A DNA stretch of 64,000 nt, from positions 756,501 through 820,500 of the forward strand of contig JAKVNF010000003.1 in NCBI GenBank assembly GCA_022483465.1, written 5' to 3'. The stretch is from Lachnospiraceae bacterium (GTDB lineage Bacteria; Bacillota; Clostridia; Lachnospirales; Lachnospiraceae). Position numbers and translations under genes: made by a program. Below are positions 44,137 through 50,700 of this stretch, one piece after another (positions within the stretch are counted from its first letter, which is position 1; every line of letters begins with the position of its first letter). The notes below the pieces were generated by a model that had not been told where the DNA came from, did no database searches, and saw nothing but the letters and a program-made list of their open reading frames with translations.

Positions 44137-45057
44137 ATGAGATACCTTGATTCCCCGAAATTCAAAACCGAACTGTCCAGGCTGGAAGTATTTCTGTCCC
44201 TGATCGACTACCGCGAGTCTACCATTCAGGGCTATCTGCAGACCGTCTTCGAGTGCTGTGAATGGCTTGAGAGAACCTATCATGTTTCCCTCGATGATGC
44301 TGATCTTGAACAGCTTCAGAGTTTTCTCGTTTATCTCCATAAGCCCATAAGCAAAGGCGGGAGAGAGCTCAAGCCCAGATCTGTCAACGTCTACAACGTC
44401 AGCATCCGGCGTTATCGTGCTTCCGTTGCGCATGCTCCCATCCCTCTGGAAAACCTTCCGCTGATGAAGGTGGATCATACCCTCCCGAAGGTACCGACGC
44501 GTCAGGAAGTGCAGAAGCTGATTATGGGGACGAAAGATCCGAGAAACCGCCTGATTCTCGCCCTCGGCTTTGGCTGTGCGCTCCGTCTGAATGAAGTCCT
44601 GTCTCTGCGCTTCGGTGATATCTCCATCAAAAGAATGCAGATCACAATTCGTGCGGAAGTCAGCAAGAACCGAAATGAAGGGAAGGTCGAACTTCCAAAA
44701 GATCTCGCGCGGATGCTCTACTTCTACTTCAAAAGATTCCGTCGGGATGCCGGAGAGGGGGACTACCTTTTTCCCGGCAGAGATGCCGCACATCATCTGT
44801 CTGACGGAGCAGTGCAGCGCTTCTTTCAGAAGCGCCTGAAAGAACTCGGATGGGAAAACCGCGGATATCATTTCCATTCCCTCCGACACGCCCATGCGCT
44901 TTTCTACTATCAGGGCGGCGCTGATCTCTTTCAGGTACAGGTCAGACTTCGGCACCGCTCCATTGCTTCCACGATGATCTACGTACAGCTGGATGGTCAG
45001 CTTCAGGAGAGAAAAAACGTTGCAAACCCCTTCGACGGAAACGGCTTCGCGCTCTGA
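44137..45057 (+). CDS. Tyrosine recombinase/integrase paired with an IS91-type transposase
   Basis: A 306-residue phage-integrase family protein with an N-terminal SAM-like DNA-binding domain and a catalytic domain holding Arg150 (ALRLNEVLSL), His247-x-x-Arg250-His251 (HSLRHAH) and the nucleophile Tyr282 (STMIYVQL). The gene overlaps the following transposase frame by up to 65 bp. Pairing of a tyrosine recombinase with an IS91-family transposase is a recurrent arrangement in databases, so I read them as one mobile unit, not as a prophage integrase; no tRNA gene or att core was found. Confidence 0.88.
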   Translation: MRYLDSPKFKTELSRLEVFLSLIDYRESTIQGYLQTVFECCEWLERTYHVSLDDADLEQLQSFLVYLHKPISKGGRELKPRSVNVYNVSIRRYRASVAHAPIPLENLPLMKVDHTLPKVPTRQEVQKLIMGTKDPRNRLILALGFGCALRLNEVLSLRFGDISIKRMQITIRAEVSKNRNEGKVELPKDLARMLYFYFKRFRRDAGEGDYLFPGRDAAHHLSDGAVQRFFQKRLKELGWENRGYHFHSLRHAHALFYYQGGADLFQVQVRLRHRSIASTMIYVQLDGQLQERKNVANPFDGNGFAL

Positions 45058-46477
45058 AAAAACAAAAAAGATGGTACCCTCGAGCCGGCCAGGCAGAACC
45101 TTCCGCCTTCCTGACAGTCAGACTGCGATCAGAGTCCGCAGATGCATTACCGGCTTCAGACAGGAAAAAGAGCCTTCAAGATATCGAATCCGCCAGATCT
45201 TCCGGAGATTTCTCCCAGACTATCTGGCAAAGCACGGAAAGGAAATGCCGCCCGAAAAGGTGAAGATTCTCCGTCTCATGGCACAATGCGGCACGGGAGA
45301 TCTGGGTTATATTGTCTCCATCTGCCCTGACTGCGGAGAAATTTCGTTTACACCGAGATCCTGCGGCAACTCGAACTGCCCCTGCTGTGGCTTTTTTCGC
45401 CGTGAAAAGTGGATCGCTGAGCGCAGGTCCGAAGTCATTCACGGGATGTCCTACCATCATCTTGTGTTCACGGTTCCCCACGATCTGAATGAGTTGATCT
45501 ACAACAATCAGAAGGCTCTGCTGGATCTTCTGTTTCATTCCGCGCAGGATGCCCTTCTGGAGCTCTGCCTTGAAAGGCACAACATTAAGCCCGGAATCAT
45601 CATGGTGCTCCACACTTTTGGGAGCAGTATGACGCTCCACTACCACCTGCACGTGCTGATCTCCGCAGGCGGACTGACACCGGATGACGCCTCCTTTAAG
45701 AAGATCAGGGGCTTCTTCCTCCCTGTCCAGAAGATATCCGGACGATACCGGAAGCACTTCATGAGAGGACTCAAGCGGCTCTACAGAAAGGGAAAACTTT
45801 CCTTCAATGGCTCTGCCGCACCCTATGAGAGTGAGGAGTCATTCCAGAACTTGTGCGACGAGTGCTACAAGTGCCTCTGGAATGTCAACCTCAAGAGGTA
45901 TGGCTCTTACTCTGAAGAAGACAGGGAGCGGGATCCGTCACTTCCGGATGTGGAGGATGTCATAGGTTATTTCGGGCGGTACGCCGATAGAACGGCAATC
46001 ACTTCCTCCCGGATCAGGGACGTCTCGGACAGCGGTATCACGTTTGAGTACAAGGACTATCATACCGATGGTTCGTACGACAAGAAGGACATGGTACTCA
46101 CGCCGGAAGAATTCATCCGACGGTTTTCACTTCACATCCTTCCAAAGGGAGTACGCAAGATCCGGATGGCAGGGTATCTTGCCGGGAATGTCCGTAAAAA
46201 GAAGCTTGCAAGGATCCACGAAATTCTGGGTGACGAATATGTACCGAGTCTGATTCGCGGAATGAAAAGCTGCGAGGTCATGAAGGCCCTTTTTGATAAG
46301 GATCCGGCCCGCTGCTCCAACTGTGGGGCACAGATGCATGCCTTTCTCTTCAGCATGGATAAGACAGCGATCTATCTCAGAGCAATGGGGAAGGTTGAAG
46401 GAAGCAGCTATATCGAAATACCCCGGTATTGCCGGGGACCGGATGGAATGTTGGATGTCTCCCATCCGCGCTTTTAA
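44993..46477 (+). CDS. IS91-family HUH (Y1) transposase
   Basis: About 494 residues if started at 44993; an ATG at 45071 is an alternative and neither has a clear ribosome binding site. A zinc region (CPDCGEISFTPRSCGNSNCPCC), the HUH motif H218-L-H220 in LHYHLHVLIS, and the catalytic Tyr330 in YADRTAITSSRI are present, as in IS91/ISCR rolling-circle transposases. These nick one strand and move by replication without target duplication. All motifs are intact. Confidence 0.9.
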   Translation: MVSFRREKTLQTPSTETASRSEKTKKMVPSSRPGRTFRLPDSQTAIRVRRCITGFRQEKEPSRYRIRQIFRRFLPDYLAKHGKEMPPEKVKILRLMAQCGTGDLGYIVSICPDCGEISFTPRSCGNSNCPCCGFFRREKWIAERRSEVIHGMSYHHLVFTVPHDLNELIYNNQKALLDLLFHSAQDALLELCLERHNIKPGIIMVLHTFGSSMTLHYHLHVLISAGGLTPDDASFKKIRGFFLPVQKISGRYRKHFMRGLKRLYRKGKLSFNGSAAPYESEESFQNLCDECYKCLWNVNLKRYGSYSEEDRERDPSLPDVEDVIGYFGRYADRTAITSSRIRDVSDSGITFEYKDYHTDGSYDKKDMVLTPEEFIRRFSLHILPKGVRKIRMAGYLAGNVRKKKLARIHEILGDEYVPSLIRGMKSCEVMKALFDKDPARCSNCGAQMHAFLFSMDKTAIYLRAMGKVEGSSYIEIPRYCRGPDGMLDVSHPRF

Positions 46478-46796
46478 TAAAGATTCTTTTCAGGTCATCT
46501 GCCCGGATGGCCTATTTCTCATGTCACAACGTCTGTAAATCCCACCCGGTCAACGGTTCAGAAGAAGAAAGATGGGTTTCTGAGCCAGGGTATTCAAGCC
46601 AAGTCGGATGCTAAAAATTCCTAACTATTCCCATAGTCTACGCTGAGAGCGATTCGGTTCAAAACAAAGGATAGTTGCCGGCCCCCTACGGGAACCGGCA
46701 ACTATCCTTCACAATTTGTATTTAAAAATGTTGATGCTGGTACAGGATCAGCAATACAATAGGATAAGGAAAGCCCGGTTTGTTTGGAGGCGTGTG
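46478..46796. other. Right end of the IS91-like unit and leader of the ATPase gene
   Basis: No gene. Contains the perfect hairpin at 46669-46707 and, from about 46720, sequence resembling the spacer of the duplicated unit (AATGTTGATG..., GCAATACAAT) that also occurs at 50321-50395. The IS91-like insertion therefore probably ended between 46707 and 46720. Confidence 0.5.
46669..46707. repeat. Perfect 13-bp hairpin at the IS91-like right end
   Basis: GGATAGTTGCCGG (46669-46681) and CCGGCAACTATCC (46695-46707) around a 13-nt loop. Rolling-circle elements carry such hairpins near ori or ter ends; no T-run follows, so a terminator is less likely. Confidence 0.6.
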
Positions 46797-47477
46797 ATGC
46801 TGCAAAGAAAAGTGATTCGGCAATTGAGGGTATGGAAACAGCACAAGAAAAAGAAGTGTCTGATTGTGCAGGGCGCAAGGCAGGTCGGAAAAACTTTTGC
46901 CGTTGAGCAGTTTGCTGCAGAGGAATATGAGGAGCTGCTGGAGATCAACTTTAAGGAGACACCTTCTGCGATGGAGATCTTCTCGGGCGATCTCTCTGTA
47001 GAGGCGATGTGTACCGCAATTCAGTTCCGATACCCAAAATTGATGATGAAGCCGGGGAAAACACTGATCTTTCTGGATGAAATCCAGGAATGTCCGGAAG
47101 CTGTCACCTCGCTGAAGTTCTGGGCGATCGACGACCGGTTTGACGTCATCGCCTCTGGGTCACTTCTCGGAATCGATTTTCGCAGATCATCCTCTTACCC
47201 GGTGGGCTATGTCGATTACATCCGGATGACAGGGCTGGATTTCGAGGAGTTCCTTTGGGGAATGGGGGTTGCGCCAACAGCGGTCGAAAGTCTGCGGGAG
47301 TATTTCGACAGAGAGAAACCGGTTCCGGCCGCCGTTCATCACCAGATGATGGCGTACTTTCGAAAGTACATCGCGATCGGGGGCATGCCGGAAATCGTGT
47401 GGGCGTATGTCTGCAATCACGACTTTCGGGAGACGGATCGATTGCAGAAGGACCTGCTGCAGGGATATCTTTCTCAC
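46797..47477 (+). pseudogene. DUF4143 AAA ATPase, N-terminal part (interrupted by the IscB element)
   Basis: The first 227 codons of an ATPase of the DUF4143 family: Walker A GARQVGKT (residues 26-33), Walker B LIFLDEIQECPEA, and a family ATPase core to LLQGYLSH. GGAGG precedes the ATG. The frame then meets TAA at the very first codon of the inserted element. The remainder lies at 49348-49980. Joined, the two parts give a 437-residue protein of normal length. The family is widespread and its function is poorly known. Confidence 0.88.
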
Positions 47478-47917
47478 TAACCCCACGGCAAGCCGTGGGG
47501 GTTGTGTGACAACACAGCCCCCATCGGCCTAACGTGAGGACTGCAGCACCATCGCAGTCCTGAGTGAGTAGCCTCACGCCTGTCCAAAAACCTTCTGATT
47601 GCGGATGGGCTACGTTATCAGCAAATTCGGCAGATCAGTTCCGGCTTGTCTGCTCGTGAACACAGGCACCAGTGGATGCTCTCACAAGTCCACTGCTCTG
47701 CGGTGTGTCACTAAACATTTCTGAGGGTAGGAGGAGTGTGATACACAACAAACTGCTGACAACATTGGCGATGTGGACCCGCCGAACGGGGCTTCTTCCT
47801 CCGGGAAGGAGCCTCCTGTAGGCAGAACCCCGTGTATGCCTTCCCTGAGGAGACACAGCACGGGAAGCCGTAAGGCACCGTAACGATTGTATGATTTTCA
47901 GAAAGGAGGCATCAGTT
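47478..47917 (+). ncRNA. Candidate omega RNA upstream of iscB
   Basis: About 400 nt of non-coding, strongly structured sequence precede iscB, the place where IscB guide scaffolds (omega RNA) are encoded. Visible stems include CCCCACGGC/GCCGTGGGG, GACTGCAG...CGCAGTC, and a GGCTTCTTCC/GGAAGGAGCC pair near 47795-47815. By analogy, the guide would come from DNA left of the element, so the last bases of the ATPase N-part (ending CTTTCTCAC) would be its 3' end. Boundaries and fold are inferred. Confidence 0.6.
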
Positions 47918-49288
47918 ATGCTGACCTATGTACTGGCTGCAGACGGCTCACCGCTGATGCCGACCTACAACATCAAAAAGGTGAGACAGATGCTCAAAGG
48001 CGGCAGAGCAGTCATTGCAGGCCACAAGCCGGGATTTACAATCCGGCTGACCTACGCTCTGCCGGATCAGAAAACGCCGCATACGCAGAAGGTCGAACTC
48101 TGCGAGGATACCGGCTATCAGCACATCGGGGTCTCCATAAAGAGCACAAAGCATGAGTTTGTCCATCTGCAGGTCGATACACTTGCAGATGAGAAGCAGC
48201 ATCACGATGCACAGAGACGGTACCGCCGCACAAGACGAAACCGTCTCCGGTATCGTGAAGCGAGGTTTGACAATCGCACGCACTCCAAGAAGCCCGGATG
48301 GCTTGCACCCTCACTTCAGCATAAAGCGGATATCCATGTGCGTCTTGTATCCACGTTCCAAAAGGTGCTGCCGATTCGTGATGTATACCTTGAAGTAGGG
48401 ACATTCGATACACAGATACTTGAGGCAAAGGAAAAGGACCTGCCAATTCCGGAAGGATCAGACTATCAGCATGGAGCCCGTTACAGCATTGCTACGCTTC
48501 GTGAAGCGGTATTTTATCGTGACGGCTACAAATGCCAGTGCTGCGGCAAGGGGATCGAAGATGGACGGATTCTGCGTGTGCACCATATCGGTTATTGGAA
48601 AACACCGTCTGATCACACAGACCGGATGAGCAACCTGATTACGGTCTGCACAAAATGTCATACGGCAGCAAATCACCAAAAAAAAGGAAAATTATATGGC
48701 TGGAAGCCAAAGATGAAGCCTCTGACCGGTGCGGCATTTATGAACACCGTGCGGTGGAAAATTGTGCAGACTGTCAAAGACTTGGATTCCAGTCTGACTG
48801 TGCATACCACGTATGGAGCATATACAAAGCTGTCACGTCGGGATCACTCCCTTGCCAAGACGCATGCAAATGATGCCTATTGTATGGGAGCGTTTCAGCC
48901 GGTGCACAGAGCGACGGAACAGCTTCTGAAAAAGAAACGCCGCAATAATCGCGTTTTATCGAAGTTTTATGACGCAAAGTATATTGATATCGGGGATGGT
49001 GTCAAAAAGTCCGGATCAGATCTGTCCTGTGGCAGAACAAACCGTTCAGAGCCTCGAAATGGGAAAAAGAACTTTCGGATCTTTCGTGGCAAAAAGGTAA
49101 GCAAAGGACGTATCGCCGTTCGAAAGCAGCGATATCCGATTCAGCCGGGAACACAGGTAATGTATAAAAAGCATACCTATGTTGCAGTTGGAACACACAA
49201 CAACGGCACAGCGGTTGTACTGAATTCAGGCAAAAGCGTATCTGTCAGTAAGCTGCGGATACTGCATCATGCCGGAGCTTTTGTTTGA
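47918..49288 (+). CDS. iscB: IscB RNA-guided endonuclease (PLMP - split RuvC - RRxRR - HNH)
   Basis: A 456-residue protein with the IscB plan: PLMP motif at residues 12-15, RuvC-I Asp64 (EDTGYQHIGVSI), arginine-rich bridge RRYRR at 100-104, RuvC-II Glu159 (LEVGTFDTQ), an HNH domain with CQCCG, His222-His223 (RVHHIG) and NLITVCTKCH, and RuvC-III His316-x-x-Asp319 (HANDAYCMG). IscB is the ancestor-like relative of Cas9 that cuts DNA guided by an omega RNA and helps retain its IS. All catalytic residues seem intact. AAAGGAGG is ten bases before ATG 47918. The C-terminal 120 residues (basic, ending in a beta-rich domain) would bind the RNA or the target-adjacent motif. Confidence 0.9.
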   Translation: MLTYVLAADGSPLMPTYNIKKVRQMLKGGRAVIAGHKPGFTIRLTYALPDQKTPHTQKVELCEDTGYQHIGVSIKSTKHEFVHLQVDTLADEKQHHDAQRRYRRTRRNRLRYREARFDNRTHSKKPGWLAPSLQHKADIHVRLVSTFQKVLPIRDVYLEVGTFDTQILEAKEKDLPIPEGSDYQHGARYSIATLREAVFYRDGYKCQCCGKGIEDGRILRVHHIGYWKTPSDHTDRMSNLITVCTKCHTAANHQKKGKLYGWKPKMKPLTGAAFMNTVRWKIVQTVKDLDSSLTVHTTYGAYTKLSRRDHSLAKTHANDAYCMGAFQPVHRATEQLLKKKRRNNRVLSKFYDAKYIDIGDGVKKSGSDLSCGRTNRSEPRNGKKNFRIFRGKKVSKGRIAVRKQRYPIQPGTQVMYKKHTYVAVGTHNNGTAVVLNSGKSVSVSKLRILHHAGAFV

Positions 49289-49347
49289 GAAAGGGGGACG
49301 GCGCTCCTCCCCGCTGCAAGCGGCGGGGTTTCCGCGCCTGTATTCAT

Positions 49348-49980
49348 TATGACATCGCACATTATGCACCGCCCGTGGAAAAGGTAAAGGCAGAAAAATG
49401 CTATCTGAGTCTTGCCAGACAGCTATTGGATAAAGAGAATCACAAATTTCAGTACAAGGAGATTGAAGCCGGGGCGCGTGCCCAGAAATATTATTCCAGC
49501 ATCGAGTGGCTGCTCCGGGCAGATCTGATTCAGCTCTGCCGAAGAGTAACCGATATCAGATATGATCTGGAGGATTATGCGCAGGATGATTTCTTTCTGG
49601 CATATCCGACTGATTTGTCACTCCTGATCGGGATGAGAGATTTAGAGCTGAAGCAGCGAATTGTAGAAAACACTTTGGCAGGTAATACCAAGGGCGGAAT
49701 TTACGAATGCGCGATTGCGGATGTTCTGCAGAAAAAAGGGTATCCGCTGTATTTCTACAAGAATGAGACGACAAGAAAAGAACTTGATTTTCTTGTGCAG
49801 ATCAAAGGCGAGGTGGTCCCGATTGAGGTCAAGGGAGGCAGTGCGAAAGCGGCGTCCCTGACGGCCCTGCAGGGCAATTGGCCGGAAATCAGCAAAGCGT
49901 TCAAATTCATGGATGGGAACGTCGGCACAGGAGAGAACGGAATTACCTCGCTGCCGCTCTATTTGTCGATGTTTCTTTGA
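49348..49980 (+). pseudogene. DUF4143 AAA ATPase, C-terminal part
   Basis: Codons 228-437 of the interrupted ATPase, beginning YDIAHYAPPVEKVKAEK and including the DUF4143 region with a PD-(D/E)xK-like end (RKELDFLVQIKGEVVPIEVKGG), normal C-terminus. In frame with the N-part once the IscB element is removed. An in-frame ATG within the element's right end (49285) could start translation of an isolated C-terminal fragment but has no clear ribosome binding site. Confidence 0.85.
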
Positions 49981-50426: not shown

Positions 50427-50700
50427 ATGCTGCAGCGATACGTGATTTGCGCGATGGAATGGAGCCAGCACAGGATACGGCAGGAAAAGAGCCTGACTTT
50501 CTTGTGCAGGTCATAGGCGAGTCAGTCCCGATGGAAGTCATTGCAGTCAATAGACAGCGCAGAGGAGGCATACCTGACAGCTCTGCAGGACAAATGGCCA
50601 GAGGCAGCAGCGCGCACAATTCATGGATGAGAATGTCGGTACAAGGGGCAAGCGGAAGGTCCCGACTGCCGCTCTGTTTGCCTCTGTTTCATCTACGCGA
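50427..50700 (+). pseudogene. Second copy of the DUF4143 ATPase, internally deleted
   Basis: The first codons (MLQRYVI...WSQH) match the start of the intact-looking ATPase (MLQRKVI...WKQH). About 50 bp later the sequence jumps to its C-terminus (EPDFLVQVIGESVPMEVI compared with ELDFLVQIKGEVVPIEVK), in another frame. So about 1 kb is deleted and the rest is frameshifted. Not a gene any more. From 50700 to the promoter at 50801 there is only AT-rich sequence. Confidence 0.75.

Follow-up and report, generated by a model that had tools for sequence, protein, structure and literature searches.

The systems closest to the element described here are the IscB/HEARO elements and IsrB. For OgeuIscB, the guide lies on the 5′ side of the RNA scaffold (PMC9640706), and the transposase TnpA is only seldom found near such elements (PMC9640706, PMC9755519). 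The adjacent motif is reported as NNRR for OgeuIscB and NTAAA for OrufIscB. DtIsrB is described in PMC9581776 with a motif of NTGA/TTGA; it cuts ATGA and not ATGG, and its Q326R mutant cuts both. The subject of the present analysis is an IscB element in a stretch of 64,000 nucleotides from a Lachnospiraceae bacterium (assembly GCA_022483465.1, contig JAKVNF010000003.1), hereafter the window. An AAA_14/DUF4143 ATPase gene is split there by an iscB gene with an upstream omegaRNA (Rfam HEARO), and the insertion is real; IscB is an RNA-guided nuclease related to Cas9. The inserted DNA is very probably a multi-copy IS200/IS605-like (OMEGA) IscB/omegaRNA element without a transposase of its own, occupying 47473–49348 and inserted without loss before ATGA(C), for which a mechanism of movement and guide use is inferred below. 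The features of this copy are as follows.

46797..47472, plus strand: 5′ half of the host ATPase gene (AAA_14/DUF4143; PF13173 at 84.6 bits, and homologues)
47457..47472, plus strand: putative omegaRNA guide CTGCAGGGATATCTTT, formed by the final 16 nt of host DNA in the left flank and adjoining the first HEARO base
47473..49348, plus strand: whole IscB element, 1876 bp (CTCACTAACCCC...CCTGTATTCATT), from the common ends of the copies, the protein gap against 29 of 29 homologues and nucleotide empty sites elsewhere
47473..47783, plus strand: omegaRNA scaffold, Rfam HEARO RF02033 (88.9 bits, gathering score 83, model positions 1-211)
47918..49288, plus strand: iscB gene, 456 aa, with its ATG at 47918 after AGAAAGGAGG (NF040563; PF14239 and PF01844; alignment to IscB in the PDB)
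49289..49348, plus strand: right end, with an imperfect hairpin at 49300-49338 and, before it, the Shine-Dalgarno-like AAAGGGGG at 49290-49297 (from sequence and fold)
49349..49353, plus strand: target-adjacent motif ATGAC, host DNA (right flanks ATGA 19/19, ATGAC 15/19)
49349..49980, plus strand: 3′ half of the ATPase gene (DUF4143; PF13635 at 84.9 bits)

In what follows G000 is the window's own genome, with C for its contigs, labels such as G034 are relatives and L numbers are individual loci; the element of the window is G000:C3:803973-805848. The initial annotation had recognised an IscB element, its precise insertion and an empty site that reveals the target and the adjacent motif, and all of this stands. 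It had taken 47478–49347 as the inserted DNA, with a target ending CTTTCTCAC and TATGAC as the adjacent bases, and these assignments do not survive comparison with relatives. Its arithmetic was recomputed and is sound, in that excision of 47478–49347 gives an uninterrupted 437-residue frame. The claim of an exact restoration, free of added or missing bases, is wrong: the join leaves GYLSHYDIAHYAPP, which holds two residues that are absent from 29 of 29 aligned intact homologues (L033, for example, reads DYRNDIAHYAPP). Excision of 47473–49348 yields GYLYDIAHYAPP, which keeps the frame and aligns with the homologues free of gaps. Since the two cuts differ by 6 nt, both preserve the frame, and the frame alone does not decide between them. 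The annotation had proposed searching relatives for the uninterrupted gene and for bases extra or missing at the junction, and bases are indeed missing there from every aligned homologue; the proteins contradict its join, fit the removal of 47473–49348, and place its boundary six bases off. A search of 62 genomes gave 30 matches beyond the own genome at E <= 1e-30, from which the 29 proteins are drawn; at 30-46% identity they are homologues, not the same allele. Proteins were compared because, for the uninterrupted ATPase gene, a DNA search of the genus turned up nothing but short matches in other genomes (7 of 61). When the intact window target was sought elsewhere in the same genome with up to 3 mismatches, the single match was the left flank of the element itself.

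The alignment of element copies, also suggested in the initial annotation, bears out common ends across the copies and puts CTCAC on the element side, with ATGA(C) as the motif. CTCAC opens 23 of the 25 left-end rows, with CTCAT in one (L091) and a match to the inner hairpin only in the other (L088). In the Rfam HEARO alignment of the window copy it forms the first strand of stem P1 of the omegaRNA, and the uninterrupted homologues of the ATPase gene and of the two other interrupted coding genes described below, for LigB and a GGDEF protein, lack it. On these sequence comparisons CTCAC belongs to the element and is not target. The boundary is not due to chance, as the full-length, interrupted and partial copies share the same ends apart from small variants. 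IS608-type elements retain a target tetranucleotide in their left flank, and the presence of CTCAC beside nearly all copies, together with the preserved frame, is what would be expected if CTCAC were the host target of a transposase and the insertion lay between CTCAC and TATGAC. That boundary is rejected and we consider it hardly tenable: besides the 29 homologues without the two residues, the empty sites of two other copies are devoid of CTCAC, its P1 pairing places it in the RNA, and a unique prior 6-nt insertion would be needed in this ATPase allele and likewise in the LigB and GGDEF genes. The lesson for reading empty sites is how readily the P1 strand of an omegaRNA passes for target sequence. 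At the other end the T at 49348 is ambiguous at the window copy; it was assigned to the element from the empty sites of the GGDEF gene, which read A/ATGA or A/ACGA (the slash marking the junction). With CTCAC in the element, the last guide bases are GGATATCTTT and ATGAC is the adjacent motif, so that the corrected reading is a guide ending GATATCTTT followed by ATGAC.

Five other insertion sites of the element were examined to see whether the sequences of relatives continue across the corrected junction. In the LigB/AMMECR1 gene (L005) 16 alignments do so: 12 are entirely gap-free, 3 have no gap within the stretch shown but carry some beyond it, and the one for L170 shows four gap positions, balanced, immediately to the left of the junction. 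Seven alignments span the junction in the GGDEF gene (L009/L014), and the stretch shown is gap-free in all of them. For the copies at start codons, relatives read a Shine-Dalgarno-like sequence, a spacer that varies slightly in length, and then ATG: at the L003 site L190 is one base shorter and L169 one base longer at the junction, and at the L010 site L189 is three bases shorter beside the junction with further gaps upstream. For the L007 site no relative alignment spans the junction. Insertion without target duplication is thus clean at the ATPase, LigB and GGDEF coding sites, where no host bases are gained or lost; host DNA on the left abuts the first base of the scaffold, and on the right begins with ATGA, usually ATGAC.

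The window's genome holds seven full-length copies, the window's own included, that are 95–100% identical, and in addition several that are interrupted or partial. Parts of the element also occur in named contigs, the nearest being from the uncultured rumen Lachnospiraceae RUG285 and RUG433 (the window's genome possibly lies outside that set); a plasmid search returned one match covering 6% of the element and a phage search none. Right ends were compared in 27 rows with a flank, two more (L009, L095) being without one. The adjacent motif is constant beside variable targets: all 19 right flanks that belong to this element read ATGA (15 ATGAC, 3 ATGAA and 1 ATGAT). The remaining eight rows comprise six from a sister subfamily with ATGGC, one relic (L018, ATGA) and one unrelated (L064). 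Small variants of the end itself occur: L003 and L015 have TATTATT rather than TATTCATT, L013 ends CATC, and in L063 a 7-nt repeat of the element's end precedes ATGAC. In the sister subfamily, found in the relative G034 (L102, L103, L105-L108), the right end is 92–96% identical, ends GTAATTT and is followed by ATGGC; this is a natural motif switch from ATGAC to ATGGC. The subfamily-B-like protein of L064 has a C-terminus that differs from that of the window's protein just before a common HAGAFV end.

The IscB protein scores 272.4 bits with the NF040563 profile, against a curated cut-off of 175, and contains RRXRR and HNH domains (PF14239, PF01844). Its start at 47918 was picked by eye; the open reading frame used in the profile tests began at 47891. 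The closest solved structure is HfmIscB (9k2z), and OgeuIscB (7xht) is also among the 10 matches. Residues aligned to what we take to be the RuvC motifs (ED-TG, YLEV, KTHANDAYC) and HNH motifs (HHI, N, CH) are kept in comparison with the 9k2z and 11hr chains. The right-end hairpin is no more stable than shuffled sequences (z = -0.59), and the idea that it acts as a shunt was accordingly dropped for want of support from folding.

The scaffold fold is more stable than 100 shuffles (minimum free energy z = -4.3). The HEARO match directly upstream of the iscB reading frame passes the gathering score of 83 in the window (88.9) and in L003 (89.3), and starts at CTCAC in both. In other genera, paired copies share homology from HEARO model position 1 on (L203/L207) or from the base preceding it (L201/L202); the wider set of close pairs behaves likewise, apart from four in which homology extends 2 to 21 bases more to the left. 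The element boundary meets the start of the RNA scaffold at the window copy, so the flank could supply a 5′ guide, and the left flank would then serve as guide.

No TnpA gene lies inside the element, none of the genome's 38 Y1_Tnp matches falling there. The bottom strand reads TCAT/AATGAATACAG-hairpin ... hairpin-GTTAGTGAG/, a layout that would fit a Y1 transposase targeting TCAT, the complement of ATGA. The first ten bases of the bottom-strand right end (AATGAATACAG and hairpin) resemble the left end of an IS200-like group in the same genome (AATGAAACAG and hairpin). Two copies at different targets, L008/L015 and L009/L014, carry an insertion of about 1.2 kb in iscB at element position 1588/1589 (1214 and 1215 bp; the two have the same ends and near-equal length, in a comparison short of full length). 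This shared insertion suggests that trans-acting factors mobilised a copy whose iscB was disrupted. By reading alone, the 1.2 kb insert looks IS1595/ISXO2-like. In the mechanism that we propose, a transposase acting in trans would excise the element and insert it on the bottom strand at TCAT, a guide derived from the left flank would load IscB, and IscB would cut the restored empty site beside ATGAC. Repair templated by a copy that has retained the element would then restore it at the cut site.

The part worth following is frequent landing between a ribosome-binding site and a start codon, co-oriented with the gene. Ten copies of the own genome with both ends were counted (L012, L013/L017, L016 and the relic L018 being excluded), and a start-codon insertion was scored where AGGA, GGAG or GAGG occurs between -18 and -5 relative to the junction and the ATG begins an open reading frame of at least 80 codons. 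Five of the ten satisfy this rule (L003, L004, L007, L008/L015 and L010/L011), compared with 252 of 4226 ATGA sites in a 464 kb background (binomial p = 1.5e-4); the background is non-random, consisting of the window and 20 stretches, 13 of them chosen around element copies or the relic. The frames at L004 and L008/L015 carry no Pfam domain. The other five paired copies (L001, L002, L005, L006 and L009) are intragenic or mixed. In the relative G034, where right sides only are observed, a frame with an AIRC domain (L094) and one with an ABC1-kinase domain (L107) open at the junction ATG. The wider family was sampled through 20 HEARO matches over cut-off outside the own genome (29 rows less 5 own and 4 weak): a Shine-Dalgarno-like sequence precedes the HEARO start by the same distance in 8 of the 20, versus 10.8% of the positions in the left flanks of these 20 (p = 7e-4), and all eight come from three genomes (G138, G153 and G164). 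At 4 of 11 right sides inspected a gene opens at an ATG 57-72 nt past the iscB stop, the genes being of the His_biosynth, FMN_red, LysM and metallo-beta-lactamase-fold types; two copies agree on the right end at the first two loci, and for the latter two it is inferred from one copy each. At the remaining seven loci no gene opens at such an ATG, and the iscB frame is short in several. Start-codon placement is frequent in some IscB lineages and absent in others (G129, for instance, with AT-rich flanks). In the literature titles and abstract openings covered, no IscB insertion between a Shine-Dalgarno sequence and a start codon is reported; the founding studies may already do so.

Since ATGA can be a start codon, many copies come to lie between Shine-Dalgarno sequence and start codon, oriented like the gene. 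Such a placement would put the guide, which needs transcription from outside the element, behind a host promoter. We tentatively raise, as a doubtful possibility, that several IscB lineages have settled on start-codon motifs (ATGA, ATGAA, ATGGC) such that the host promoter transcribes guide and omegaRNA; the right end may re-supply a ribosome-binding site and so keep the host gene alive, through either a Shine-Dalgarno-like run and hairpin or GAGGT/AAGGTG just before the ATG. If placement at start codons is a strategy, it would explain how a 5′-guide RNA that needs an outside promoter is transcribed after each move. The same enrichment can also arise by selection against intragenic insertion, with ATGA entered anywhere and the copies between Shine-Dalgarno sequence and ATG surviving where they leave the coding sequence intact. 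Purifying selection of this kind as the sole cause has a little less than an even chance of being right: half of the paired copies lie away from start codons, so insertion is not restricted to them, whereas selection alone leaves the co-orientation at intragenic sites unexplained.

The relic L018 (G000:C2:611728-611781) is a solo right end (AAAGGAGGA, hairpin and ~10 nt) that forms the leader of a TPP-enzyme (acetolactate-synthase-like) gene. Twelve relatives have no such hairpin before the conserved ATG of this gene, and by eye a Shine-Dalgarno-like sequence is present in 9 of the 12. The relic may be a right end domesticated as ribosome-binding site.

At each of the sites, in both subfamilies, where a reading frame open at the junction has an above-cut-off Pfam domain, that frame runs in the same direction as iscB (13 of 13: L001, L002 on its right side, L003, L005, L007, L009/L014, L010/L011, L094, L099, L101, L102, L105 and L107). 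Frames at L091 and L103, with domains below cut-off, are also co-oriented, and the other sense frames scanned have no domain. ATGAC itself has no strand bias within reading frames (444 sense versus 450 antisense). IS200/IS605 transposases are described as inserting into the lagging-strand template at replication forks, and this habit combined with the genome's gene-strand bias could also yield the co-orientation. We regard that explanation as possible, at clearly less than even probability. At 12 of 14 places the element lies on the strand that carries most of the local coding sequence (the elements' own reading frames included), while the local coding share of the element strand ranges over 37-100% with a median of about 63%, and the sign of the GC skew agrees with the element strand at only 7 of 14 places, the skews being too small to trust as a replication marker. 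Selection for an outside promoter and a replication-strand bias of the transposase both fit the co-orientation.

Several further points weigh against the account given here of the element, its movement and its placement. With stricter whole-genome filters, five other own-genome copies (L003's site among them) score 68.9-82.7 with HEARO, below the cut-off, and their matches begin 40-49 nt inside the element, where the Rfam start is no marker of the end; the HEARO start is for this reason the weakest of the three boundary tests. The exact end motifs are absent from 30 loci that hold 35 of the 38 Y1_Tnp matches, a search that diverged ends would escape. The insertion common to two copies could be due to gene conversion. 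The start-codon rule was framed after the pattern had been seen, and the window's own copy is intragenic. Antisense frames were scanned at 11 sites only (no domains), fewer than sense frames.

Other observations concern individual copies and the neighbourhood. The left flank of L084 and the right flank of L103 resemble, by eye, two halves of one GNAT gene. The two sides of L002, a left flank with a terminal Shine-Dalgarno-like sequence and a right flank within a hexapeptide-transferase gene, seem mismatched, which suggests recombination between copies. In another copy, L010/L011, the iscB gene holds a non-autonomous insertion of ~260 bp with ends GGCCCTTTCA...TGAAAGACCC. In the window, 44137-46715 holds a tyrosine recombinase and an IS91-type Y2 transposase with a terminal hairpin near 46667-46715; the L012 copy is cut at position 1489 and abutted by a hairpin end resembling it, and L013/L017 is cut at about position 1489 too. 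An apparent degenerate remnant of a second copy of the ATPase gene, with a start region and a near-end piece out of frame, was seen by eye at 50430-50620.

The object belongs to the known IscB/HEARO kind and is a new member of it. Like the IscB/HEARO OMEGA elements (OgeuIscB, OrufIscB; RF02033), it combines a RuvC-HNH protein with an upstream HEARO, a 5′-side guide and a 3′ adjacent motif; unlike those of OgeuIscB and OrufIscB, its motif is ATGA(C), and the element often sits at a junction of Shine-Dalgarno sequence and ATG. IsrB is without the HNH domain that the protein described here carries. ATGA is accepted by DtIsrB as well, and the pair of ATGA and ATGG subfamilies resembles the single-residue difference in DtIsrB, so that both motifs fall within the known behaviour of the wider family (PMC9581776). 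The 25 natural adjacent-motif readings come from two closely related IscB elements, and the ATGA/ATGG pair, with its near-identical right ends, would serve as a natural experiment on how the C-terminal domain chooses the motif. The IS200/IS605 TnpA elements of the same genome share subterminal hairpins and similar bottom-strand end bases with the IscB element, which differs from them in target flank and right end and in encoding no TnpA.

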